A stretch of 23,920 nt of DNA from an uncultured Caryophanales bacterium. GTDB lineage: Bacteria > Bacillota_I > Bacilli_A > RF39 > UBA660. The translations under genes and the position numbers were made by a program. Positions within the stretch are counted from its first letter, which is position 1. Every line of letters begins with the position of its first letter. The notes under the pieces were generated by a model that worked only from the letters and a program-made list of their open reading frames with translations, ran no database searches and was not told the DNA's origin. Below, piece after piece: positions 8,391-23,920 of this stretch. The stretch covers positions 1 through 23,920 of the forward strand of contig CAMOVZ010000011.1 in NCBI GenBank assembly GCA_946628045.1. The letters run 5' to 3'.

Positions 8391-11300
8391 ATGAAAAAGA
8401 TAATTAAGAAGTTTTTTTATGAGTTTGAAAATATCACAGATTATTATAATTTTTTAGTTAATAAAACTAAAAATCATGAGTATGTAGAAATCGCAAATGA
8501 ATGGTTAATAGATAATTATTATTTATTAGTGGAACACAAAAACAATATCTTAAATTCAAAAAAAGAATTATCAAAAAATTATAAATTAATTGTTAATAAC
8601 TATCTTTTCTTTAAAAATATGGTTACAAATAAAAACTATAATATTAGTTTTAAATACTTAGTAGATGAATTAAAAAAATATCAAAAAGAAACAAATAAAA
8701 TATTTACTTATAAAGAATTATCATTAGTCTTTACCACATTAGTACTTATTTATATTGAAAGATTAAATAACTTAGTAAATGAAGAAAAACAAATACTATT
8801 AAATAAAGATAAAATAAAAACAATAATTAATAGTAATAAATTAGTAAAATTAACTGATTTTCTAACAGATGATTTTAATGTGGAAAAAAACTCTAACTAT
8901 ATATTTGAAATAAACAGTAAAATAAATAAAGTTAGTGAAGGAAGTAGTGAATTATTTAAAGATTTATATGAATATCTTGAAAGAAAAAATATAAGTCTAA
9001 AAGAATTGATAAATGAAGAATATCAAAGAAAAATAGATAATGATATTTTGATATCTAATATATTTAGTGATTTAAAAGAAATTTTTGAATATTCATTAGA
9101 TGATTTATATGACAAAGTATCTTTATGCGAAAAACTATTATTAACAGATTCTGTGTATAAAAATATGACAGCAGAATCAAAAAGTGTATATCGTGATAGA
9201 ATTGTATTTTTAGCTAAGAAAAATCATATGAATGAATATAAATATTTAGAAAAAAAATTTAATAAAGATGAGCATATAGGATTTAAAATATTTAAAGAAA
9301 AAGATAATACTTTTGAACTAATACTTTATCTGATTGTTATATTAGGAGTTACATGTACAATCTCATATTTTTTAGTTGGATATTTTACTAAATATTTTAT
9401 ATTAAGTTTTATTATGATTTTAATTCCAATTGGGCAATTAGTTATTCAGATTATTAATGAACTTTTAAATAATAATGTTCCAATTAAATATATTCCAAAA
9501 TTAGATTACTCTAAAGGTATACCTGAAGAATCTAGGACTATGGTAGTAATACCTACCATAATATCTGATACTAAAAAGGTAAAAGAAATGTTTGATATAT
9601 TAGAAACATTTTATATTATTAATAAATCAGATAATTTATATTTCACATTATTAGGTGATGCTAAAACTAGTAATAATGAAGTAGAAGACTATGACAAAGA
9701 AATAACAGAATATGGAATTGAATATGCTAAAAAGTTAAATAAAAAATATAATAAAGAGTTATTTTATTTTATGTATCGTAAAAGAGTATGGCATGAAGGT
9801 GAAAATGCATTTTTAGGATATGAAAGAAAACGTGGAGCACTTTTACATTTTAATAAAATATTATTAGGAAAGAAAATAAGTGAAAAGAAGTATTTTAATG
9901 CCAATACTCTTCATAATAATAAATTAAATATTAAATATGTTATTACATTAGATACAGATACTAAATTAGTATTAAATTCTGCCTTAAACTTAGTAGGGGC
10001 AATGGCACATCCAGTAAATAGACCAATTCTTAATAAAGATAATACTAAAGTAATTAAAGGATATGGCATTATGCAACCTCGTGTTAGTGTCGATATAGAA
10101 GCAACTAATAGAAGCTTATATAGTCAAATATTTGCAGGTATTGGAGGTTTTGATACATATTCATATTTAACCCCAAATACATACCAAGATAATTTTGGAG
10201 AAGGTAGTTTTGTAGGTAAAGGTATATATGATTTAGAAATATTTGATAAATTATTAAGTGATACATTTAAAGATAATCTAATCCTATCACACGACTTACT
10301 AGAAGGTAATTATTTAAGATGTGCTTATGTTTCAGATATAGAATTAATAGATGATTTTCCATCTAAATTTTTAGTAGATGTAACAAGACAATCGAGATGG
10401 GCTAGAGGAGATACTCAAATAATTGGATGGTTAGCACCTACCGTTAGAAATAAAGATAATAAAAAAGTTAAAAATCCAATCAATTTATTAGGTAAATATA
10501 AAATACTAGATAATATTATTAGAATGTTTTTAAACCCTATGTTACTAATTATATTATTAGTAGCATTTACAGGTGGTTTTAAAAAATCAATATTTTGGGT
10601 TTCATTTGTAATATTGGAAATAGCTATATCAATGATATTTTTTCTACGAAGTAAAATGAGTAGAAAAGCTAAAAATCAAAAAGAAATATATTACCGAAAT
10701 ATATATTTTGGTTTTAAGTCACTACTACTTAGATCATATATAGTATTTGCAACTATTCCATATTATGCAAAATTGTACATGACTGCATTTTTTAAATCTT
10801 TATATAGATTATTAATATCACATAAAAATTTACTTAATTGGATAACTGCAGAAGAAGTAGCTAAAAATTCTAATAATAGTTTATTTAATTATATTAAAAA
10901 CTTTTGGTTTAATACATTAACTGCATTAGTATTCATAGGAATATTTTGTATCACCAAAAATCCAATATCTTTAATTATTTCTATTATATTTATAAGTGCA
11001 CCATTTGTATTATATTTAGTAAGTAAAGATATCGATCATACTGAAGTAGAATTAAAAGATAAAAAGATAGAAGAAATAGAAGATATTGCATACAAAACTT
11101 GGAAATATTTTGAAGATAATTTAAAAGAAGAATATAATTTTTTAATTCCTGATAACTATCAAGAAAATAGAGAAGAAAAATTAGATATGAGAACTTCTCC
11201 AACAGCTATAGGTTTTTCACTAACTAGTATAGTAAGTGCTTATGAATTAGAATTTATTACAGAAAAAAAGGCTATTTATTTATTACAAAATATATTAGAA

Positions 11301-14300
11301 AGTATAGATGGATTAAAGAAGTGGCATGGGCATTTATATAACTGGTATAATATTAAAACTAAAGAAGTATTAAGACCTAATTTTATTTCTACAGTAGATT
11401 CAGGTAACTTAGTATCATCACTTATAGTAGTAAGAGAATTTTTAAATAAATTAGAAGAAGAAAAATTAACAAAGTTATGTGACAAACTAATAAGAAATAC
11501 TAACTTCAAAAAATTATATACTAAGAAAAACGTATTCAGTATTGGATATGATGAAGATGAAGGAAGATTATCAGTATATAATTATAATAAGTTTGCATCA
11601 GAATCACGTCTAACTAGTTATTTAGCTATAGCGTTAGGCGATATTTCTAGTAAGCATTGGTTCAGTTTAGATAAGTCACTTACTACATATAAAAATCATA
11701 AAGGATTGATCTCATGGAGTGGAACTTCTTTTGAATACTTCATGCCATTCCTATTTATGAAAAATTATCCTAATACATTATTAGACGAATCATATAACTT
11801 TGCTTTATTATGTCAAAAAGATTATATAAATAAAATAGACCATCACTTACCATGGGGTATATCAGAATCAGCATATAATGAATTGGATAATTCATTAAAT
11901 TATAAATATAAAGCTTTCCATACTCCATATTTAAAGGCAAAAGAAGATAAGGAAAATAGAATAGTAATTTCTCCATATTCATCTATTATGGCAATGGAAC
12001 TAGCTCCAACTGATGTATATGATAATATAAAGAAATTTAAAGAATTAGAAATGGATTCTATTTATGGTTTATATGAATCATATGATTATGATAATAAAGG
12101 TGTAGTTAAATCTTATTATGCGCATCATGAAGGAATGATTTTACTAGGAATAACTAATTATTTAAAGAAGGATATTATTAAAGATTATTTTCATTCAAAT
12201 GTAAATATAAAGACATTCGAAATATTATTAAAAGAAAAAGTTCAAATTAAATCAAGTATAGACATGAAAATGGCTAAATATAAGAAATATGATTATAATA
12301 AAGAAACTATTGAAAATGATATAAGAGCGTTTAATTATATTTCATATTTACCAGAAGTATCTGTCCTATCTAATAGAAAGTATTGTTTATTAATGAATGA
12401 TAGAGGTAATTCGTTCTCAAGATATAGAACACTACAATTAAATAGATATCGTAAAGTAACAGAACAAGAATATGGTATATTCCTATTCATAAAAGATATA
12501 AAAGATAATTATATATTTAGTAATACCTATGCACCTATGAATATCAAACCTGATAAATATGAAGTAGTATTTGCATCAGACAAAATAAAGTATTTAAGAA
12601 GAGATAATATGATATCTACTAAAACAGAAATAGTAGTATGTAGAAATCATCATGCAGAAATAAGAAAAATTACTTTTAAAAATGAATCAGATATTGATAA
12701 AGAATTAGAATTAACTAGTTATACAGAACCAATTTTATCTGAGAATATGGATGATGTAAGTCACAAAGTATTTAATAATATGTTTATAAAAACTGAATAT
12801 GATAAAAATACAAATAGTTTAATAGCAAAAAGAAGAAGTCGAGGAGATTCTCCTATTAATAGTTATATGTTAACTAGATTAATAATTGATGAACCATTAG
12901 ATAAATATACGTATGAAACAGAAAGAAGTAATTTTATTGGTAGAGGTAATACAATTAATACAGCTAATGCCCTTAATAATAAATTAAGTAATTATAATGG
13001 AGAAAATCTAGATCCTGTATTATCACTAAGAAATAAAATATTACTTAAGGCTAATTCATCTACATCAGTATATTTATTAGTAGGATTTGGAAGAAGTAGA
13101 GAACAAATTAATGAAATAATTAAGTATTATGATAATAAATATAATTTAGAAAAAGCATATGAAATAGCTACATTAATGAATGTGTCTGATACAAAAAATA
13201 TGAATATTACAGGTGAAAATATGAGAACTTATAATATCATGTTAAATTACTTGTATCAGACAACAAAACTTTCAGTTTCAGAAGAGAGAATGGATTTCTT
13301 AAGACGTAATGCACTTTCTCAAACAGGATTATGGAAATTTGGTGTAAGTGGAGATAGACCAATTATCACAGTAGAAATAAGTGATATTAGTGATATAAGT
13401 TTTATAAAAGAAATATTAAAGGCATTTGAGTATTATAAAAATAAATCTATCTTCGTAGATATAGTTATTATTAATAATGAAAATGCTGGATTCAAGGAAT
13501 TAATAAAAAAACAAATAGATGATGAATTATATAGAATATATACACTTAATAGTTTCTATCATACACCAGGCAGTGTTACAGTGATAGATGGATCTATCTT
13601 AACAAGAGAAGATAAAAGTCTATTAAACGTAGTACCTAGACTTAGATTTGTAATAGAAAATCATATGACATTAAAAGAAGCAGTGGAAGATCTACAAACT
13701 AAGAATAAAGTTAGTGATTATCAAAAATCTGAATTAGAAGAAAATATAAAAGTAAAAGAAAAAGATAAATTAGTATTCGATAATAACTATGGTGGATTTA
13801 AAAATAATGGAAAAGAATATGTTATTTATAACAAATTAACTCCTATGCCATGGTCTAATGTCATATCTAATAAAACTTTTGGTACTATAATTACTAATAA
13901 TGGTTGTGGATATACTTACGCATATAATTCTAGTGAATTTAAAATATCTAGTTGGACTAATGAAACAGTAATTAATGATAGAAGTGAAGGATTCAAATTT
14001 AATAATAAAATATTTGATCCAGAAAAATGTACACATGGATTTGGATATAGTATTTTAGAAAGTGAAACAAAATCTTTAAATCATAGTATTACAGAATTTG
14101 TAGCAAAAGAAGATAATGTAAAAATATATTTATTAAAATTATCAAATAAAGAAAAGAAAAATAATAAAATAAATATAGAATATTACATAAATCCAACTTT
14201 TGGTAATTTTGAAGAAAAAACAACTAGACATATATTATCTGAATTTATGGGTGAAGATAATTATTTAAAACTACGTAATGTATATAGTATTAATTATAGT

Positions 14301-16022
14301 GATGTTAATGTATTTATGACTTCGAGTGAAAAAATTACTAAAGCTGAATGCAATAAGATGTTAGTAAAGAGTATTAGCTTTGATATAGATTTAAAACCTA
14401 ATGAAGAAAAAGAAATAGTTTTTGCATTAGGATGTAGTCTATCAGATGAAGAAAATTTAGAATTAATAAATAAATACACTAATATTAATAATTGTAAAAA
14501 AGAATTAAAATTGGTTAAAGATTCATGGGATGATATCTTAAAAACTATTAAGGTTGATACACCAGATGATAGTTTTAATTATATGATTAATGGTTGGTAT
14601 CTATATCAAACAATATCATCTAGAATATGGGCAAAAGCAGGTTTTTATCAAGTAAGTGGTGCTTTTGGATTTAGAGATCAACTACAAGATGCTATGAATA
14701 TTTGTTTAGTAAAAGAAACAGATACAAGACGACAAATCCTAATAAACGCTGCACATCAATTTATAGAAGGAGATGTCCTACATTGGTGGCATGAAAAAAA
14801 TCATTTTGGATTAAGAAGTAGATATAAAGATGATTATTTATGGTTAGTATATGCTACTATTCATTACTTAGAACTTACCGAAGATTATGATATTTTAGAA
14901 GAAAAAATACCATACATAGAAGGAGAAAAAATAAGCGATTATGAGAATGAAAAAGGAATCATATTTAGTTATTCTAATAAATATGATACATTATTAAATC
15001 ATTGTATAAAGTCTCTTGAATTATCTATGAAATCTTTAGGAACTCATAAAATACCTTTAATGGGTGGAGGAGACTGGAACGATGGAATGAATAGAGTAGG
15101 TATTAAAGGAAAAGGAGAAAGTGTCTGGTTAGGATTCTTCTTATATGGAATTATTGATAAGTTTACTAAAATAATAAAAAAATATGATAAAGAATTTAAT
15201 ACCACAAAATATATTGAATTCAATGATAAATTAAAAGAAAATTTAAACAAAAAAACTTGGGATGGTGCTTATTATTTAAGAGCTTTCTTCGATAATGGAG
15301 ATAAACTAGGCTCTCATGAAAACTATGAATGTAAAATAGATTTAATATCACAAAGTTTTTCTATACTAAGTAATGTAGCTCCAAAAGAAAAGATAGAAAA
15401 AGTCATTACTTCAGTCGAGGAAGAATTAGTAGATAAAGATAATAAAATCATAAAATTATTAACTCCAGCATTCTCAAAGAGTCTAAATAATCCAGGATAT
15501 ATTATGAATTATCCAAAAGGTATAAGAGAAAATGGAGGACAATATACTCATTCAGTTTCATGGTATATAATGGCCTTAATAAAAGCAGGGTATTATGATA
15601 GGGCATATCAATACTATCAAATGATAAATCCAATTAATAGAACTAAAAGTGAAGAAGATATAAATAAATATAAAGTAGAGCCTTATGTAATCGCTGCTGA
15701 TATATATTCAAATGAGAATTTTGCTGGCCGTGGTGGTTGGACATGGTACACAGGATCTGCTGGATGGTTCTATAGAGTAGGTATAGAAGAAATATTAGGT
15801 ATTAAACGTCATGGAAATAAATTATCTATTAAGCCTAATATACCAAGTTCATGGGATTCATATAAAATAACATATAATTATAAAGATACTATATATGAAA
15901 TTCAAATTATTAAAGGAAATAAAGAAGGTATATTACTAGATGATAAAGAAATAGTATCTGATACATTTATCTTGAAAAATGATAAAAAATCACATAAAAT
16001 AATTGTTAATATTCATAAATAG
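8391..16022 (+). CDS. ndvB: Cyclic beta-1,2-glucan synthase-like giant membrane glycosyltransferase (NdvB/Cgs family)
   Basis: The 2,543-aa protein has the three-part layout of cyclic beta-1,2-glucan synthases, which build the chain from UDP-glucose, cyclise it and trim its length. The first part is a GT84-like synthase: LDTDT (520-524) with the DxD metal motif, SHDLLEG (633-639) with the base-type Asp635, and RQSRW (666-670), the (Q/R)QxRW motif. Hydrophobic helices flank it at about 308-355, 712-755 and 838-880. The second is a central glucoamylase-like region (from about 933, with TVDSGN at 1001-1006 and HHEGM at 1245-1249) that corresponds to the cyclisation domain (GH189) of such enzymes. 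The third is a GH94 phosphorylase-like domain: FGFRDQ (2092-2097), GDWNDGMN (2227-2234) with a likely general acid Asp2231, and RGGWTWYTGSAGW (2447-2459). All motifs look intact. Related proteins in proteobacteria are near 2,850 aa. Whether the product is cyclic or linear cannot be read. The gene uses the same AT-rich codons as its neighbours. Confidence 0.88.
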   Translation: MKKIIKKFFYEFENITDYYNFLVNKTKNHEYVEIANEWLIDNYYLLVEHKNNILNSKKELSKNYKLIVNNYLFFKNMVTNKNYNISFKYLVDELKKYQKETNKIFTYKELSLVFTTLVLIYIERLNNLVNEEKQILLNKDKIKTIINSNKLVKLTDFLTDDFNVEKNSNYIFEINSKINKVSEGSSELFKDLYEYLERKNISLKELINEEYQRKIDNDILISNIFSDLKEIFEYSLDDLYDKVSLCEKLLLTDSVYKNMTAESKSVYRDRIVFLAKKNHMNEYKYLEKKFNKDEHIGFKIFKEKDNTFELILYLIVILGVTCTISYFLVGYFTKYFILSFIMILIPIGQLVIQIINELLNNNVPIKYIPKLDYSKGIPEESRTMVVIPTIISDTKKVKEMFDILETFYIINKSDNLYFTLLGDAKTSNNEVEDYDKEITEYGIEYAKKLNKKYNKELFYFMYRKRVWHEGENAFLGYERKRGALLHFNKILLGKKISEKKYFNANTLHNNKLNIKYVITLDTDTKLVLNSALNLVGAMAHPVNRPILNKDNTKVIKGYGIMQPRVSVDIEATNRSLYSQIFAGIGGFDTYSYLTPNTYQDNFGEGSFVGKGIYDLEIFDKLLSDTFKDNLILSHDLLEGNYLRCAYVSDIELIDDFPSKFLVDVTRQSRWARGDTQIIGWLAPTVRNKDNKKVKNPINLLGKYKILDNIIRMFLNPMLLIILLVAFTGGFKKSIFWVSFVILEIAISMIFFLRSKMSRKAKNQKEIYYRNIYFGFKSLLLRSYIVFATIPYYAKLYMTAFFKSLYRLLISHKNLLNWITAEEVAKNSNNSLFNYIKNFWFNTLTALVFIGIFCITKNPISLIISIIFISAPFVLYLVSKDIDHTEVELKDKKIEEIEDIAYKTWKYFEDNLKEEYNFLIPDNYQENREEKLDMRTSPTAIGFSLTSIVSAYELEFITEKKAIYLLQNILESIDGLKKWHGHLYNWYNIKTKEVLRPNFISTVDSGNLVSSLIVVREFLNKLEEEKLTKLCDKLIRNTNFKKLYTKKNVFSIGYDEDEGRLSVYNYNKFASESRLTSYLAIALGDISSKHWFSLDKSLTTYKNHKGLISWSGTSFEYFMPFLFMKNYPNTLLDESYNFALLCQKDYINKIDHHLPWGISESAYNELDNSLNYKYKAFHTPYLKAKEDKENRIVISPYSSIMAMELAPTDVYDNIKKFKELEMDSIYGLYESYDYDNKGVVKSYYAHHEGMILLGITNYLKKDIIKDYFHSNVNIKTFEILLKEKVQIKSSIDMKMAKYKKYDYNKETIENDIRAFNYISYLPEVSVLSNRKYCLLMNDRGNSFSRYRTLQLNRYRKVTEQEYGIFLFIKDIKDNYIFSNTYAPMNIKPDKYEVVFASDKIKYLRRDNMISTKTEIVVCRNHHAEIRKITFKNESDIDKELELTSYTEPILSENMDDVSHKVFNNMFIKTEYDKNTNSLIAKRRSRGDSPINSYMLTRLIIDEPLDKYTYETERSNFIGRGNTINTANALNNKLSNYNGENLDPVLSLRNKILLKANSSTSVYLLVGFGRSREQINEIIKYYDNKYNLEKAYEIATLMNVSDTKNMNITGENMRTYNIMLNYLYQTTKLSVSEERMDFLRRNALSQTGLWKFGVSGDRPIITVEISDISDISFIKEILKAFEYYKNKSIFVDIVIINNENAGFKELIKKQIDDELYRIYTLNSFYHTPGSVTVIDGSILTREDKSLLNVVPRLRFVIENHMTLKEAVEDLQTKNKVSDYQKSELEENIKVKEKDKLVFDNNYGGFKNNGKEYVIYNKLTPMPWSNVISNKTFGTIITNNGCGYTYAYNSSEFKISSWTNETVINDRSEGFKFNNKIFDPEKCTHGFGYSILESETKSLNHSITEFVAKEDNVKIYLLKLSNKEKKNNKINIEYYINPTFGNFEEKTTRHILSEFMGEDNYLKLRNVYSINYSDVNVFMTSSEKITKAECNKMLVKSISFDIDLKPNEEKEIVFALGCSLSDEENLELINKYTNINNCKKELKLVKDSWDDILKTIKVDTPDDSFNYMINGWYLYQTISSRIWAKAGFYQVSGAFGFRDQLQDAMNICLVKETDTRRQILINAAHQFIEGDVLHWWHEKNHFGLRSRYKDDYLWLVYATIHYLELTEDYDILEEKIPYIEGEKISDYENEKGIIFSYSNKYDTLLNHCIKSLELSMKSLGTHKIPLMGGGDWNDGMNRVGIKGKGESVWLGFFLYGIIDKFTKIIKKYDKEFNTTKYIEFNDKLKENLNKKTWDGAYYLRAFFDNGDKLGSHENYECKIDLISQSFSILSNVAPKEKIEKVITSVEEELVDKDNKIIKLLTPAFSKSLNNPGYIMNYPKGIRENGGQYTHSVSWYIMALIKAGYYDRAYQYYQMINPINRTKSEEDINKYKVEPYVIAADIYSNENFAGRGGWTWYTGSAGWFYRVGIEEILGIKRHGNKLSIKPNIPSSWDSYKITYNYKDTIYEIQIIKGNKEGILLDDKEIVSDTFILKNDKKSHKIIVNIHK

Positions 16023-17608: not shown

Positions 17609-18802
17609 ATGATTAAATTTGATTTTAAAACATATGTAAAACCTTTTATAGATGAAAATAAGTTTAATGAATTATATAATAAGAAAGATGAATATATAAC
17701 TAAATTAAATTCTTGTAATATGATTGGTTGGACTAAAGAAATAAATAAAGAAGTTGTTAATGACATAGAAAATACTGCTAACTATATTAAAAATAATTTT
17801 GATTGTTTAGTAGTTGTAGGTATAGGAGGATCATTCTTAGGTAGTTTTTCTTTTCATAAAGCATTTCAAAAATATTTTAATGATAAATCCTTTGAAGTGA
17901 TTTATACAGGTACAACACTTTCTAGCAAATATTTAGATGAGTTATATGATTATCTAAAAGATAAAAATTATTGTATTAATGTTATTAGTAAGAGTGGAAC
18001 GACTTTAGAAACTAATATCACATATAATTTGTTGAAAGACTTATTAAAAAGAAAATATAATGAAGAAGAAATCAAAAAAAGAATTATTATCACAACAGAT
18101 AAAGAAAATGGTGCTTTAAGAGAAGAAGTTAATATGAAAGGATATAAATCTTTTGAAATACCAAATGATATTGGTGGAAGATTTTCATTTATGACTCCAG
18201 CTCATTTATTACCTTTAGCACTAAATCATAATTTAAATAGTATTGTTGATGGATATTATGATGGTAAAAGATTTATTGATAAAGCATATGAATATGCAGT
18301 AATAAGAAAACTTTTATTTGATAATAAAAAGCAAATAGAATGCTTCTCTGTATATGAAGAAAATCTATCTTACTTTACTGAGTGGTTAAAACAATTATTT
18401 GGAGAAACTGAAGGTAAGAATAATAAAGGTATATATCCAACTTCAATGGTACATACAAGAGATCTTCACTCATTAGGGCAATTCATTCAAGAAGGTAATA
18501 AAATTATATTTGAAACATTTATTAAAATTGATAAATCTAATCACTTTATTAAATATGATAATAATGATTTACATACAATAAATAATATAGTAGAAGATTC
18601 TGTAGAAAAAGCACATTTTATAGGCAATACACCATGCTTAGAAATAGAAATGGATGAATTAAATGAATCTAACTTATCTGAACTTATGTATTTCTTTATG
18701 TTGGCTGCTGCATTCAGTGGATTATTATTTGAAATAGATCCATTTAATCAACCAGGTGTTGAAGTATATAAAAAAGAAGTTAAAAAATCATTAAATAAGT
18801 AG
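17609..18802 (+). CDS. pgi: Glucose-6-phosphate isomerase
   Basis: This enzyme interconverts glucose-6-phosphate and fructose-6-phosphate in the cytosol. VVGIGGSFLG (69-78) and ISKSGTT (126-132) are the sugar-phosphate binding SIS motifs. GGRFSF (189-194), GETEGK (265-270) with the catalytic Glu, LHSLGQ (286-291) with His287, and QPGVEVYK (381-388) with Lys388 are all present. At 397 aa it is about 50 residues shorter than the usual bacterial form. The loss is spread over an early segment, a loop near 330-345 and the C-terminal tail, not the active site. It leads a probable operon with the PAP2 gene 8 bases downstream. Hexose phosphate is the route to UDP-glucose, which the glucan synthase upstream would need; that link is inference. 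Confidence 0.95.
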   Translation: MIKFDFKTYVKPFIDENKFNELYNKKDEYITKLNSCNMIGWTKEINKEVVNDIENTANYIKNNFDCLVVVGIGGSFLGSFSFHKAFQKYFNDKSFEVIYTGTTLSSKYLDELYDYLKDKNYCINVISKSGTTLETNITYNLLKDLLKRKYNEEEIKKRIIITTDKENGALREEVNMKGYKSFEIPNDIGGRFSFMTPAHLLPLALNHNLNSIVDGYYDGKRFIDKAYEYAVIRKLLFDNKKQIECFSVYEENLSYFTEWLKQLFGETEGKNNKGIYPTSMVHTRDLHSLGQFIQEGNKIIFETFIKIDKSNHFIKYDNNDLHTINNIVEDSVEKAHFIGNTPCLEIEMDELNESNLSELMYFFMLAAAFSGLLFEIDPFNQPGVEVYKKEVKKSLNK

Positions 18803-18810
18803 GTGAAATA

Positions 18811-19437
18811 ATGAAGAAAAGATATATTATTTCAGCTATCTTCTTTTTATTATTTATTTTATTAACAATATTAATAACTACAAATAATATTAGATTATTT
18901 GATGATAATGTTTATAATTATATTAGTAGTTTTAGAAATAGTTATTTAGATAATATATTTAAAATAATTACTAAATTTGCGAATCCAATATCTATAACTA
19001 TATTAGTATTAATATTATTGATTATTTTAAAAAAAGAAAATATATATAAATTAATATTAACTGTATCAACAACAGTATTACTTAATCAAGCATTAAAACA
19101 TCTTATAAGAAGACCAAGACCAGATCATGTAAGATTAGTAAGTGAAAAAGGATTTTCTTTTCCTTCAGGTCATTCTATGATATCGATTGCTGTATATGGC
19201 TTTTTAATATATTTAGTTTATAATAATATTAAAAATAAATTTTTAAAGACAATATTAATAATATTATTAGTAATATTAATATTAGGAATAGGTATTAGCA
19301 GAATATATTTAGGAGTACATTATCCAACTGATGTATTAGCGGGATACTTCTTAACTATTTCAATAATTATATTAATAATTAGTCAAATAGATAATCATTT
19401 TAGGGGGAATATAAATGATAAGGATGGTAGTAAGTAG
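18811..19437 (+). CDS. PAP2-family membrane phosphatase
   Basis: A 208-aa integral membrane protein with about five or six helices. It carries the full three-part PAP2 signature: KHLIRRPRP (96-104, KxxxxxxRP), PSGH (118-121) and SRIYLGVH (163-170, SRxxxxxH). These enzymes dephosphorylate lipid phosphates. Short members like this act on undecaprenyl diphosphate or phosphatidylglycerol phosphate, with the active site facing outside. The exact substrate is not readable. Its last 23 bases overlap the start of the next gene in another frame, indicating coupled translation. Confidence 0.9.
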   Translation: MKKRYIISAIFFLLFILLTILITTNNIRLFDDNVYNYISSFRNSYLDNIFKIITKFANPISITILVLILLIILKKENIYKLILTVSTTVLLNQALKHLIRRPRPDHVRLVSEKGFSFPSGHSMISIAVYGFLIYLVYNNIKNKFLKTILIILLVILILGIGISRIYLGVHYPTDVLAGYFLTISIIILIISQIDNHFRGNINDKDGSK

Positions 19438-20116
19438 TTTTTATAATACTTTAATTAATTATGAAGAAGCAATTCCAACTTCTACTATGTTAGAAATAGA
19501 TAGAATTAGGAATAATAATGTTTTGTTTACTGTCTCAACAAATGGGCTTTATAATGAAATATTAGATTATAATAAAGACTTTCCATTTGTTGATTATATT
19601 ATTTCTTTAAATGGAAGTTATGTTTATGATGTTAAAAATAATAAATGTATATATAAACAAAAAATAGCTAAATTGGATGTAAAAAAAATATATAATAGTT
19701 TTAAAAATTATAAATTAAATTACTATACTGAAAATAAAATATTAAATAATTATAATGAAACATTAAATAAGGATATTTATAAAATAGAAATAGAAGATTA
19801 TAGTGATACAAATATAGAAAGTATTAATTGTAATTTATCAATCCTTGAAAAAAATAATAAAAAATATTTAGAAATAATTTCTAATAAATGTAATTCTTAT
19901 ATATCTCTAGAAAAGATAAATAATTATACTAATATAAAAGAAAATGAAGTGTTAGTAATAGCTGGTAATGATAGTGATATAAATTTATGTAAAAACATAA
20001 AAAATAGTTATATAGTTGAAAATGCAAGTAATCAATTAAAAAATATAATTAAAAGTAAAACAATGTCAAACAATGAATATGGTGTTGAAAATGTAATAAA
20101 AGATGTGATAAAATAA
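19415..20116 (+). CDS. Degenerate HAD/Cof-type hydrolase homologue (likely pseudoenzyme)
   Basis: The 233-aa protein follows the Cof-type HAD layout: a first beta strand with a loop (5-14), a second motif FTVSTNG (38-44), the ISLNGSYVYD segment (63-72) where Cof proteins read FNGAxVYD, a cap region, and AGNDSDINL (183-191) in place of GDxxND. In motif I, which should read DxDGTL, the residues are SFYNTL (8-13), so both catalytic Asp residues are gone. Hydrolase activity is therefore not expected; a binding or regulatory role is possible. A GGGGA ribosome site precedes ATG 19415, inside the PAP2 gene. A second ATG at 19424 is possible but has a poorer site. Confidence 0.7.
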   Translation: MIRMVVSSFYNTLINYEEAIPTSTMLEIDRIRNNNVLFTVSTNGLYNEILDYNKDFPFVDYIISLNGSYVYDVKNNKCIYKQKIAKLDVKKIYNSFKNYKLNYYTENKILNNYNETLNKDIYKIEIEDYSDTNIESINCNLSILEKNNKKYLEIISNKCNSYISLEKINNYTNIKENEVLVIAGNDSDINLCKNIKNSYIVENASNQLKNIIKSKTMSNNEYGVENVIKDVIK

Positions 20117-20141: not shown

Positions 20142-20447
20142 ATGAAAGAAAAATTTTTGCCAATCGGAACAGTTGTAAAATTAAAAGGATCAAATAGAAA
20201 AATAATGATTACTGAATTTTTAGTATTTTCTCAAAGCAATAAAGATTCTAAAATATATGAATATGGAGCATGTCCATATCCTACAGGATTAGAAAAAAAT
20301 GTAGCTATAGGATTTAATCATGATAGTATTGAAGAAGTTGTACATATGGGATATGTTGATGAAGAATTTAAAAAATTAAATGACTTCTTTAAAGAAAATG
20401 AAGATAAAATAAGAAATGAAATAAAAACTAAACTGTCAAACAAGTAA
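20142..20447 (+). CDS. DUF4176-like protein
   Basis: The 101-aa protein begins LPIGTVVKLKGSNRKIMI (residues 6-23), the pattern of DUF4176 proteins. The following beta-strand-rich part contains YEYGACPYPTG, and the C-terminus is a charged helix. In other Firmicutes this family is commonly encoded in type VII secretion/LXG effector loci as an accessory of unknown role. That fits the helical protein and giant open frame about 1 kb downstream. AGAGGAG is a strong ribosome site. It is 25 bases after the HAD gene, so it is probably the end of the pgi operon. Confidence 0.68.
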   Translation: MKEKFLPIGTVVKLKGSNRKIMITEFLVFSQSNKDSKIYEYGACPYPTGLEKNVAIGFNHDSIEEVVHMGYVDEEFKKLNDFFKENEDKIRNEIKTKLSNK

Positions 20448-20454
20448 TAAAAGT

Positions 20455-20484
20455 AAACTTAAGGTTAATGTCTTAAGTTTTTTT
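20455..20484 (+). terminator. Intrinsic terminator after the DUF4176-like gene
   Basis: AAACTTAAG (20455-20463) pairs with CTTAAGTTT (20472-20480) around an 8-nt loop, followed by T. The sortase-like gene begins 14 bases later without a clear promoter, so some read-through is possible. Confidence 0.8.
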
Positions 20485-20498
20485 AATAAGAGGTTTAT

Positions 20499-21266
20499 AT
20501 GAAAAAGAAAAAATTAATAAAAATATTAATAATAATTATATTAGGATGCATACTAGGATTATTAGGATATTATATATACGATAAAAATAATAATAAAATA
20601 ATACCTAGTGTAAAACAATTAATAGAAGAAAAGAAAATTAAAAATTATAATGATAAAAATGATGATCAACCTAATATAGAGCAATATGTTAATAGATTAA
20701 ATGAATATCGTAGTGAATATAACAATTCCAATATAATGGGTAAATTAGAAATTCCTAATTTAAATATAGATTCATTAATTGTTAGGACAACTAATAATGA
20801 ATATTATTTAAATTATAATTTATATAATCAATATGATGGATTAGGAGCACCATTTTTTGATTATAGAAATACTGATTTAGCAAATAATAGACAGATTAAT
20901 ATATATGGACATAATACAAGAAATGAAAAGTATTTTAAGGATTTACCGTTTATTAATTTAGAAGCATATGTTGATAAAAATATATTTGATAATTATAAAA
21001 ACATATATTTAAGTATAGATGAAAAACAGATTTCTTATGAAGTTATAGCAGTAAAAATTATTAATAATAGTGATAATGAACATATGAAAGTGATTTTTTA
21101 TAGTGATGAAGATTATTTAAATCATGTTACTAAATTGTTAAAAAACACTTTATATAAAAATGATAATATTACTATTAATAAAGAAGACAAATTAATAGTA
21201 TTACAAGTATGTCATTATAATCCTGAAGGAACTTATTTATTAGTAATAGGTAAAGAAAAAAAATAA
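20499..21266 (+). CDS. Sortase-B-like membrane protein lacking the usual Arg
   Basis: A 255-aa protein with one N-terminal membrane helix (about 6-26, Lys-rich start) and an extracytoplasmic sortase fold. Sortases cleave a sorting motif and join the protein to the cell wall. IYGHNT (135-140) gives the catalytic His138, and IVLQVCHY (233-240) gives the catalytic Cys238 in the TLxTC position. The Arg that normally follows seven to ten residues after the Cys is absent; the segment reads GTYLLVIG (244-251). It therefore may be altered in activity. The GH(N/S) and overall spacing best match class B. It has the ribosome site AGAGG. Its own sorting substrates are not visible in the window. Confidence 0.72.
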   Translation: MKKKKLIKILIIIILGCILGLLGYYIYDKNNNKIIPSVKQLIEEKKIKNYNDKNDDQPNIEQYVNRLNEYRSEYNNSNIMGKLEIPNLNIDSLIVRTTNNEYYLNYNLYNQYDGLGAPFFDYRNTDLANNRQINIYGHNTRNEKYFKDLPFINLEAYVDKNIFDNYKNIYLSIDEKQISYEVIAVKIINNSDNEHMKVIFYSDEDYLNHVTKLLKNTLYKNDNITINKEDKLIVLQVCHYNPEGTYLLVIGKEKK

Positions 21267-21295
21267 AGTGTAAATATTTACACTTTATTTTTTAT
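21262..21295 (+). terminator. Strong intrinsic terminator (14-bp perfect inverted repeat)
   Basis: AATAAAGTGTAAAT is followed at once by its exact reverse complement (21262-21289), then a T-rich tail. The stop codon lies in the 5' arm. Confidence 0.85.
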
Positions 21296-21309
21296 TTGAA
21301 TTAATAAAA

Positions 21310-21338
21310 TTGTAAATTAATATTAAATTTAGTATAAT
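21310..21338 (+). promoter_or_regulatory. Promoter of the helical-protein/large-protein pair
   Basis: TTGTAA (21310-21315), a 17-bp spacer and a perfect TATAAT (21333-21338), 31 bases before the start codon. It shows that the last two genes form their own unit. Confidence 0.75.
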
Positions 21339-21369
21339 ATAAATTAAGATAGTAGGTATAGGTGATTTT

Positions 21370-21759
21370 ATGGGATATGGCATAACAAGTAGAGATCAAA
21401 TAATAGATATATCAGAAATCAAAAAGAAAATAGGTATATTACGATTGTATGTAGGCGATTTTGGTGATGCAATAGATCACGTGGAAAATGCGGGTGAAAT
21501 ATGCACGTCAGAAGCCTTATTAATAGATGGAGTTGCATATATTAATCAAACTCTTATTAATTTAGCAGAAGAAATGCACCAACAAAAGCAAGCGTTCATG
21601 GCTTATTTAGATTCCTTAGAAGAAGAAACACAAAATGTTTATGATGCTCAAGTTGCTGAGTTAAATAATTATATAGCAGAACAGGAAGCAAATAGAAGAC
21701 GACAAGAAGCAATAAAGCAACAACAGCAGCAGCAAGAATCACTTAATAAAACACGATAA
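21370..21759 (+). CDS. Small helical protein, possible WXG/LXG-type partner
   Basis: A 129-aa, almost fully helical protein. The first 60 residues include SEIKKKIGILRLYVGDF, and a long amphipathic helix runs from about 55 to 110. It then ends in an Arg/Gln tail with six Gln in a row (about 118-123, CAA/CAG codons). No membrane segment or signal peptide is present. Its size, helical nature and position directly upstream of a very large protein resemble the small helical partners of LXG or WXG100-type substrates of type VII secretion. No WxG motif is visible, so this is inference from context. The GGTGA ribosome site and strong promoter support the start. It is 31 bases from the next gene. Confidence 0.7.
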   Translation: MGYGITSRDQIIDISEIKKKIGILRLYVGDFGDAIDHVENAGEICTSEALLIDGVAYINQTLINLAEEMHQQKQAFMAYLDSLEEETQNVYDAQVAELNNYIAEQEANRRRQEAIKQQQQQQESLNKTR

Positions 21760-21790
21760 AAAGTACTACTGATAAATAGAAGGTGAAGAT

Positions 21791-23920
21791 ATGGATGGAA
21801 TATTAAATTATAATCCAGATTTGGTTGAAGACACGTTAGACGAATTATATTCAGCAATGCGACAAATAGGTAAAAAATCAATGTTTTCTAGAATACCAAT
21901 GCCAGAACAATTTTTACGTGAATTTAATGCAATAAGAGGAGTACATTGCATTCCAACAAAAGGTGTAGAATCAATGTTTGATACTGTTGAACAATATCAT
22001 GACATTATAGTGGACATTGTGAATTACTTAGAGGGAGTACAAGAAAGAATTGATGAATATAATGAAGATGATTCAGAACCATGGCTTAGAGCTCTAGCAA
22101 CTGTTGCATTCGGTGGCATAAGAACATTAGAAGGTGTAGCAGAAGCAGGTGAATGGATTGTTGATGGATTTGCATCTGGAATAGCATGGGCTGGAGGAGC
22201 AACAGGATTAATGAGTGATGAAACTCAACAACAATGGGCAAACTTCATAGAAACAGATCATGTAGGAGATGCCTATAGTATATATTATACTGATACATGG
22301 ATTGGTAGAAATAGCTATATAGGCCCAGATGATACTGCAGGAAAAATATTTAAAGGTGCAGGTAATGTGTTAGGATTCATATCATATATAGCTGTAGGTG
22401 GAGCAATAGGTGGAGCAATAGGAGAAGGAGTAGGCCTTGCTACAGGAGCCACAACAATAACAGGAGGATCTAGTGCTTTAGCGGCATCACCAGTAGCTGC
22501 AATCTGGGGCGGAGCTTTATCTGGTGCCGGAACAGCCACAGGATCACTCGGAATTGCTACAGCAACAGCAGGTATTTCTGGTATGGGTAGAGGAACTCAG
22601 GCAGGATTACAGGCAGGACAAACTTTTAATGAAGCAGCTGGCACAGGTTTAAGAACAGGGTTAACTTCTGCTGCCACAACTTTAGCTGTTGCAGGAGTTA
22701 CAAAATATGTAATAGGGCCAGCACTAAGCAGATTATTATCAAGAGGTGGTAGTAGCGCTCTTTCAACTGAATTTGCAACAACTCAAAGTAGAACAGTATC
22801 TGATATATTATCTGATTTTAATAACGGAACAATAAGTGCGGATGTAGCGGCACAACAAATGGCAGACGCGGTATCAAATCCAGCAACAGGAGATTTTTTA
22901 GCTATACAAATACAACAAGGAATAAATGCAGGTCAAGCAGCAGGAATGACAGAATCTCAAATTGCAGAGCAACTAGGAATATATTTATCAGGGGAACCAA
23001 TTTTAGAAACAGCAGCAGGAGCTGCATCAAGCGCAGCAGCTGGTACAGCAGCAAATGCCGCTGCCGAAGCAGCAAGCGGTACTGCAGTATCATCAGTAGT
23101 ATCAAATACTGCAACTACAACTGGAACAAATGCATTATCAGTTGTAACAAATAGCGCAGTATCAGAAGGATCAACAGTATTATCAACATCGCTATCACCA
23201 TTAGCTACAGGTGTAGCTAATTCAATAACTCCAGTAGCAACAGGTGGAAGCAATGCATTAGCATCAGTATTAAATAGAACAACTAATTCATTAATGTCGG
23301 GTGCAACAAATGTAAATCCATCAGTAGTGAATTCACCTACATATGATATAAATGACGTAAGCGTATCATTAAATCCAACATCACGAACATCAATAGATAG
23401 GGTTTTATCACAAGCGGCAGAAACACCAGCACCATCGTCAGTAGCACCATCAGGACAAACTTCAGTAGAAATTGCACGTGATGCTGTCAGAGCAGCAGAG
23501 GAAGAACTAAACACTGCACAATCACAATTGGATAGATTAATGAGCATGCGTAATGGAACTATTAATACTTCAAATAGTACTACTACCAATAGTAATATAT
23601 CTCGCATATTAGATAATATGCCAGGGCAACAAAGGGTTAATCAAGTAGTTCATAATGAAGCAAATAAAATATTAGACGAGATGATTGCTAGTGCAGAGCA
23701 AAGAGTTTCAACAGCACAAACTAATTTAAATGTTGCAACAGAAACATTACAACGTGAACAACATGCTGAAATGATGAATTGGGCTGAAGAAATAAATAGT
23801 TCGGCAACGGCAACACCAAGTAATAGTGGAGTAAATGAAATAATAGAAAATGCAAACAATTCATTACCAACAGAATTAGCAACAACACCAAGTAATAATG
23901 GAGTAAATGAAATAATACAA
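21791..23920 (+). CDS. Large secreted or surface protein / LXG-like effector, 3' truncated by window edge
   Basis: The frame opens at ATG 21791 (AAGGTGA ribosome site) and stays open for 710 codons to the window end. Residues 1-95 are helical and soluble. Residues 96-190 are Trp/Tyr-containing with two amphipathic helices. Residues 190-310 are rich in Gly and Ala with glycine-zipper hydrophobic stretches (AVGGAIGGAIGEGVG at 201-215), possibly membrane inserting. A low-complexity Ala/Ser/Thr/Val part follows to about 550, then coiled-coil helices (about 557-665), and the start of a 24-residue tandem repeat. No signal peptide, Cys lipobox or LPxTG is visible so far, which suits a type VII-like export route. 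Base composition is visibly less AT-rich than its neighbours. The C-terminal domain, where a toxin would lie, is outside. I do not recognise a named family. Confidence 0.8.
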   Translation, partial: MDGILNYNPDLVEDTLDELYSAMRQIGKKSMFSRIPMPEQFLREFNAIRGVHCIPTKGVESMFDTVEQYHDIIVDIVNYLEGVQERIDEYNEDDSEPWLRALATVAFGGIRTLEGVAEAGEWIVDGFASGIAWAGGATGLMSDETQQQWANFIETDHVGDAYSIYYTDTWIGRNSYIGPDDTAGKIFKGAGNVLGFISYIAVGGAIGGAIGEGVGLATGATTITGGSSALAASPVAAIWGGALSGAGTATGSLGIATATAGISGMGRGTQAGLQAGQTFNEAAGTGLRTGLTSAATTLAVAGVTKYVIGPALSRLLSRGGSSALSTEFATTQSRTVSDILSDFNNGTISADVAAQQMADAVSNPATGDFLAIQIQQGINAGQAAGMTESQIAEQLGIYLSGEPILETAAGAASSAAAGTAANAAAEAASGTAVSSVVSNTATTTGTNALSVVTNSAVSEGSTVLSTSLSPLATGVANSITPVATGGSNALASVLNRTTNSLMSGATNVNPSVVNSPTYDINDVSVSLNPTSRTSIDRVLSQAAETPAPSSVAPSGQTSVEIARDAVRAAEEELNTAQSQLDRLMSMRNGTINTSNSTTTNSNISRILDNMPGQQRVNQVVHNEANKILDEMIASAEQRVSTAQTNLNVATETLQREQHAEMMNWAEEINSSATATPSNSGVNEIIENANNSLPTELATTPSNNGVNEIIQ
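23813..23920 (+). repeat. 72-bp (24-residue) tandem repeat, one and a half units
   Basis: Bases 23813-23848 recur at 23885-23920 with two changes, giving a period of 72 bp in frame. The unit begins TPSNSGVNEII and contains NANNSLPTELA. It probably continues past the window edge. Confidence 0.75.

Follow-up and report, generated by a model that had tools for sequence, protein, structure and literature searches.

A giant protein of uncultured Bacilli as a candidate type VIIb substrate for anchoring by a class-B-like sortase

The DNA analysed in this study, a stretch of 23,920 nucleotides from an uncultured Caryophanales bacterium (the window), carries at its right end four forward-strand open reading frames: a DUF4176 protein of 101 aa (20142-20447), a class-B-like sortase of 255 aa (20499-21266), a helical partner of 129 aa that we call PART (21370-21759), and a giant protein of at least 710 aa that we call BIG (21791-23920). 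Our results suggest, with a probability that we put at roughly 60%, that BIG would be exported as a type VIIb substrate and kept on the cell wall by a sortase dedicated to it, and not released as a toxin. Because the BIG gene runs as an open frame into the contig end and is cut there, the evidence on the end of BIG and on the EssC ATPase comes from relatives, all of them from uncultured Bacilli, whose genomes and loci are coded G and L, respectively. The gene order, the families, the tail sequences of the relatives and the co-occurrence counts given below were observed directly.

A small helical partner together with DUF4176, as found in type VIIb substrate loci, is present in the window and recurs in relatives, and sequence comparison supports the assignment of the window genes to a putative type VIIb-type locus. 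The DUF4176 protein scores 76.4 bits against PF13780 (cut-off 25), in agreement with the first-pass annotation of the window, and the AlphaFold2 model of PART (mean pLDDT 91.3) is a two-helix hairpin with helices at residues 14-44 and 57-128, as befits the small all-helical protein that had been described there. PART has a family motif around ITSxSQLID and is likely the export partner of BIG. Every Foldseek match to PART was weaker than E 0.001, and the several EsxB chains seen near E 3 are not evidence. In many relatives the locus holds WXG100-like proteins A (about 96 aa) and B (about 91 aa), PART or a second partner type, BIG and DUF4176, and in G250 the order WXG-WXG-PART-BIG-DUF4176-sortase-EssC is unbroken, the EssC having 1546 residues. 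The DUF4176 gene comes next after BIG in 11 of the 16 complete strong relatives (a strong hit being E 3.1e-29 or better), with the contig end or a different gene after the others. The A protein of one genome (G103:C32:1836-2087) reaches 43.4 bits against the Pfam WXG100 family PF06013 (cut-off 27.3), and none of six proteins scanned one by one (three A, three B) passed that cut-off. Against the PDB, the best match of the A profile was EsxA at E 0.0034, equal to that of an unrelated helical protein, while the B profile gave no match of the EsxA kind.

EssC (TIGR03928) is over its cut-off in six of the eight genomes with syntenic loci. It is present in 141 of the 291 genomes of the family (138 over the cut-off), and its distribution follows that of BIG: 13 of the 14 genomes with strong BIG hits have it vs 128 of the 277 others (Fisher p 5.5e-4), and at a looser BIG cut-off the figures are 25/27 vs 116/264 (p 6e-7). 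These and the later co-occurrence p values come from draft genomes, in which absences are soft, and from related genomes, which are not independent. With helical partners, DUF4176 and WXG100-like pairs recurring as well, the earlier proposal of a type VII locus is supported.

The relatives were reached through the neighbouring PGI gene and through profiles. A single-sequence search of the protein collection gave no match for BIG and only PART itself for PART, and direct contig scans with the BIG N-domain gave no match. The scan with PGI returned eight loci from uncultured bacteria (L001-L008); relatives of PGI, PAP2 and the HAD phosphatase are consecutive in seven of them, L008 having no PAP2 or HAD match. 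The sortase follows HAD in L002, L004 and L007. Downstream of it, L007 encodes a helical protein of 151 residues and then a BIG relative, truncated by the contig end, that is 30% identical to the window BIG across 303 residues. The order of sortase, helical protein and BIG is not due to chance, since it recurs in G007 (L007) and in other genomes. In L001, L003, L005 and L006 the gene after HAD is pseudouridine-synthase-like, and a homologue in L217 belongs to PF00849. A two-row BIG profile found relatives in 17 of the 291 family genomes (E 0.001 or better) and a 16-row profile in 27 of them (E 1e-5 or better), 14 of these 27 having strong hits.

The sortase has an N-terminal membrane segment and scores 32.2 bits against PF04203 (cut-off 26.6). 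The class B sortase model TIGR03064 gave the best score of the list (97.8 bits, below its cut-off of 153.75) and in the PDB the closest matches are structures of sortase B (E 7.5e-18), so the earlier description of the protein as sortase-B-like stands. His138 and Cys238 are invariant across eight aligned members. In known sortases the arginine on the strand after the cysteine is catalytic; Tyr246 occupies the place where the aligned sortase B (u82085) has Arg, and Tyr is found there in the eight aligned members and in five more that were read, the readings for L007 and L060 being taken from the eight-member alignment and that for L183 from its visible end only. Several other class-B-like sortases of the family genomes (among L129-L151) also have no Arg after the Cys and carry Tyr, Phe, Leu or other residues instead, a few keeping Arg, so we do not put forward the loss of Arg as a distinctive feature of the sortase linked to BIG.

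The subfamily to which this sortase belongs is narrow, being found at E 1e-100 in 7 of the 291 family genomes, with the next best match at 2e-58; across the order, 6 of 385 genomes have it at E 1e-60. Six of the seven family genomes have a strong BIG hit vs 8 of the 284 others (p 2.6e-8), and in the seventh, G222, a BIG-type tail adjoins the sortase. Among the 14 sortase loci seen, ten adjoin BIG, a BIG tail or a short BIG (the window, G005, G007, G103, G149, G165, G222, G250, G252 and G467); the locus of G003 is cut by the contig. In G467, which was found by the sortase alone, the neighbours are another partner and a short BIG of 216 aa. The setting of the pair differs from locus to locus: it follows HAD in the window and in L007, a penicillin-binding-protein gene in L060 (PF00905; like-sized genes stand in L183, L216 and L240), and DHFR and DUF975 genes in L058 (L063 has the same order), and it precedes EssC in L062. 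Linkage that is repeated in such different settings argues for a functional unit, and the sortase, which had been singled out as the odd part of the locus, belongs to its story.

The tails of the relatives consist of a Pro/Thr/Ser-rich stalk, in some a sorting-like motif, an Ala/Gly hydrophobic segment, Lys/Arg and acidic residues. A hydrophobic segment near the end, then basic residues and an acidic tail are found in all 16 complete strong BIG rows. The motif Y-x-x-[IVL]-P-[NDKQS]-T is present in all four strong rows with this sortase within four genes and in none of the 12 without; when two tail-only frames beside DUF4176 and the sortase are counted with the sortase-linked rows from a reading of their ends (G222 and G103; L161 and L162), the motif stands just before the hydrophobic segment in 6/6 vs 0/12 (p 5.4e-5). 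This count covers 16 of the 24 strong rows, the other eight being cut by contig ends (the window, L007, L059, L060, L061, L070, L071 and one of three in L182). The length after the hydrophobic segment is 18-30 residues in ten frames with the motif vs 52-117 in 12 without. In G007 and G165 the sortase-linked BIG is truncated; another contig of each genome carries a motif tail with DUF4176 after it (L209 and L208, respectively). A second BIG-like gene of G005, short at 415 aa, has the motif but no adjacent sortase. In the protein collection the motif is present in 16 of 39 BIG relatives. When 20 genomes were scanned with a profile made from nine tails, nine gave a match at E 1.6e-10 or better. 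The sortase subfamily is present in all nine of these and in 4 of the other 11 (G002, G003, G004 and G426; p 0.005). By kinship, the window BIG would be expected to have an IP[N/D/K]T tail of this kind at its end. Among the BIGs with no motif, those of L067, L068, L180, L181 and L182 share the end [E/D]LA[D/E/S][L/I/V/M]Q on the longer acidic tail, and a BIG-like gene of G002 (L239:3342-5088) with a motif-less tail is read as two frames of 410 and 183 aa.

The case of G467 bears on whether the motif follows kinship or the sortase. Its BIG, of 786 residues, ends in ...PEYEVIPDTKVGG... and lies with its PART after relatives of PGI, PAP2 and HAD, as in the window, and before a pseudouridine-synthase-like gene. 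In a tree of the N-domain with 42 rows, 17 of them taken from the 39 BIG relatives of the protein collection, a branch of 19 (support 94/99, inner order open) includes the window BIG, every sortase-linked BIG of the tree and all motif-bearing rows except that of G467, which groups with motif-less rows (support 98/96). Since this motif-bearing BIG sits in a motif-less branch, the motif in G467 goes with the sortase rather than with kinship.

The conserved N-domain of BIG comprises its N-terminal 330 or so residues, which are the part that has relatives. Residues 214-497 are 52-70% Ala/Gly/Ser/Thr by blocks, and helical and linker stretches follow beyond this middle. No family in Pfam or NCBIfam is over its cut-off for BIG, in keeping with the first-pass annotation, and among PDB structures the N-domain profile had no usable match, a coiled coil at E 0.021 being the best. 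Repeats had also been claimed; a long repeat run was looked for in the sequenced part and only one 28-base array was found, at 22395-22422. Repeats are only a tentative cause of the contig break in BIG; no repeat array lies at the very end of the window contig. Several contigs break inside BIG, frequently at low-complexity sequence (the window end at 23920; L007, L059, L060, L061 and L070), which probably hides the full length of the gene in draft genomes. No hydrophobic N-terminal signal was seen in BIG: the best 19-residue mean in the first 60 residues is 0.26 in the window, and by the same measure the 24 BIG rows range from -0.56 to 1.26 vs 1.69-3.10 for nine sortase anchors.

A BIG-like N-domain is also found, by moderate to weak matches, on toxin-like proteins of the same bacteria. 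The protein at L184:7673-9217 ends in NAGPA (PF09992, 48.3 bits, cut-off 25), and that at L178:8153-11080 has a metallopeptidase-like C-terminus that at 21.8 bits is below the cut-off of 27.4. As an aside, a further protein with such an N-domain, at L076:6617-10324, has a transglutaminase-like C-terminus (PF01841, 28.3 bits, cut-off 23). It is possible that the three belong to a non-LXG family of polymorphic type VII proteins. Since a related N-domain heads toxin-like proteins, it looks like a targeting module, of which BIG looks like the branch that stays on the surface. A match in a phage-like locus, L077 (E 8.9e-5), was rejected as a probable glycine-rich chance match.

The same proteins raise the alternative that BIG is a released polymorphic toxin of type VIIb, whose toxic C-terminus and immunity gene would lie past the contig, as the first-pass annotation had expected when it proposed an LXG effector. 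The C-terminus of the window BIG does lie past the contig end, DUF4176 accompanies LXG toxins elsewhere, and the L184 and L178 proteins carry a related N-domain. We nevertheless consider this alternative unlikely: all 16 complete strong relatives end in the hydrophobic segment and charged tail, DUF4176 follows most of them, no Pfam domain was over the cut-off in the 13 complete relatives scanned (L058, L062-L069, L072, L073, L183 and L238; L180, L181 and two of L182 stood outside the scan), and the window BIG groups with the sortase-linked BIGs. Of the 39 relatives in the protein collection, three have a precomputed Pfam assignment, PF08044 in two and PF08226 in one. The LXG domain PF04740 was over its cut-off in none of 12 genomes, where one match under it was seen (G003) and a Bacillus subtilis control was positive; BIG itself gave no match, and LXG membership of BIG was dropped.

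Our preferred reading, anchoring of a type VIIb substrate, would work as follows. PART, DUF4176 and a WXG100-like pair, encoded in the locus or supplied from elsewhere, would hold and target the N-terminal helical domain of BIG, and EssC would drive the protein across the membrane, a route that we favour because BIG shows no Sec signal peptide. Transfer would stop at the Ala/Gly segment and the Lys/Arg residues after it, which would leave the stalk and the N-domain outside, whereupon the sortase would cleave after the Thr of Y-x-x-I-P-[N/D/K]-T and join BIG to peptidoglycan. The outcome would be a glycine-zipper-like N-domain displayed on a Pro/Thr-rich stalk, and members with no sortase would stay membrane-anchored by their longer tail. 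Export, stop-transfer, cleavage and wall linkage are in each case steps that we infer from gene order and sequence.

A number of observations weigh against this reading. Since the sortase has no canonical Arg, its activity is unsure, and the tails of the relatives end acidic, whereas a classical sorting-signal tail is positively charged. No WXG100-like pair is found beside PART where the sortase is directly upstream, and profile comparison left kinship with the WXG100-like proteins unsupported both for PART (A, probability 1.6%) and for BIG (A and B, 24.9% and 0.6%, respectively). Two BIG genomes have no EssC match, G139 with a strong BIG and G030 with a weak one. The expression for the motif was chosen after the first tails had been seen, and eight of the nine genomes matched by the tail profile had supplied rows to it (G467 had not). 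No strong motif tail was found in the sortase genomes G002, G004 and G426, nor in G003, whose sortase contig is cut, and in G467 the motif-bearing BIG lies about 113 kb from the sortase on the same contig. A DNA pattern for Y-x-x-I-P-[N/D]-T alone is not specific, with 26 matches in 13 genomes (reversed control 12), 9 of the 26 falling in BIG-type tails. For the window itself, the tail of BIG and the genome lie beyond the sequenced stretch, so the statements on tail and EssC are statements about relatives, and the long branch of its row (1.92) means that its position in the tree is not firm.

To these must be added two observations that would fit an explanation in which the sortase and BIG are chance neighbours, the sortase of the PGI-PAP2-HAD cluster serving other proteins and BIG being a plain type VII substrate or a membrane-anchored one. 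In G002, G004 and G426 (3 of 13 readable loci) the sortase follows HAD without any BIG next to it, and a hairpin with a T run lies between the sortase and PART in six of seven loci compared, with just a weak one in L007, so that the two are probably separate transcription units. In the window this terminator-like, AT-rich hairpin (21265-21297, forward strand) was read in the sequence and is not in the output of the terminator scanner, which requires three G-C pairs. A weak promoter-like site, TTGTAA-17-TATAAT, lies upstream of the PART gene on the same strand (21310-21338); 23 sites of this kind were found vs 20.9 expected in shuffles. Chance proximity is nevertheless improbable, about as much so as a released toxin, because the linkage recurs in several settings (the window and L007; L060; L058; L062) and the motif tracks the sortase. 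Least probable is an ordinary Sec-exported, wall-anchored adhesin that lies near type VII genes by accident: the stalk and sorting-like tail of the relatives are adhesin-like, but BIG has no hydrophobic N-terminal signal and is associated with the partner, DUF4176 and EssC; of the plain surface protein that the first-pass annotation had named as its own refutation, the sorting-signal-like tail is thus found in sortase-linked relatives, and the Sec-type signal peptide is missing and the neighbours are of type VII.

Type VIIb secretion is known for WXG100 proteins and LXG toxins, both of them released. Sortase substrates are described as entering through Sec (PMC12445088). The LXG effectors TelA, TelC, TelD, TspA and BltA are encoded with Lap partners and DUF4176 (PMC9600955, PMC11322744, PMC11481500), and a DUF4176 protein is reported to be needed for export of TelA, not of TelC, and to contribute to that of TspA (PMC11322744, PMC11481500). 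The BIG locus resembles such loci in the N-terminal helical region, the small helix-turn-helix partners, the DUF4176 gene and, in most relatives' genomes, EssC. In contrast, BIG has another partner family and no PF04740 match, and its relatives have an anchor-like tail instead of a toxin and no immunity gene that was recognised. TelE is an LXG toxin with a glycine zipper (PMC10434224), a type VIIb protein that like BIG has a glycine-rich hydrophobic region; in BIG this region lies in the conserved N-terminal third, and the relatives have the anchor-like tail.

On the sortase side, class B sortases have dedicated substrates, an example of their motifs being NPQTN of IsdC (PMC3297441), and the BIG system, judged by its sortase-linked relatives, shares with this class one accessory sortase for one substrate, an xPxT-type motif, a hydrophobic segment and a charged tail. 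It differs in its motif, IP[N/D/K]T with G, N, S, M or K as the next residue, in a tail that starts basic and ends acidic, in a sortase that has no usual Arg and in a substrate that has no Sec signal peptide. WapA of Streptococcus suis, likewise a giant protein linked to a class B sortase (SrtB), is reported to cross by Sec and to carry a toxin (PMC12704120), whereas BIG has no signal peptide and its relatives no toxin domain. Candidate sortase substrates with Tat signal peptides have been reported (PMC10924467) and, as we propose for BIG, stand outside the Sec route, to which type VII would add a third. In the open-licence literature searched, parts of which were available to us, we found no description of a sortase-anchored type VIIb substrate, which is not proof of absence. 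The sortase and the type VII parts are each of known kinds and it is their pairing that would be new. We advance more tentatively, at a little short of even odds, the wider proposal of a third route into sortase anchoring, in which proteins with no signal peptide would cross by type VIIb, a dedicated sortase lacking the classical arginine would weld them to the wall, and a glycine-zipper-like domain, whose relatives head toxin-like proteins, would be displayed. If the anchoring is true, a sortase-held type VII protein would give the type VII system a structural or contact role, and unnamed proteins of uncultured Bacilli would become a testable system with a clear readout (wall-bound vs membrane-bound) and a testable class of sortase motif.

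The remaining genes concern the surroundings of the locus. PGI (17609-18802), PAP2 (18811-19437) and the HAD phosphatase (19415-20116) lie towards the right end of the window, on the forward strand. Further upstream, after tRNA genes, the window encodes a 2543-residue protein with GH94 and glucoamylase-like domains (8391-16022), and a relative of this protein precedes PGI in most of the syntenic loci.

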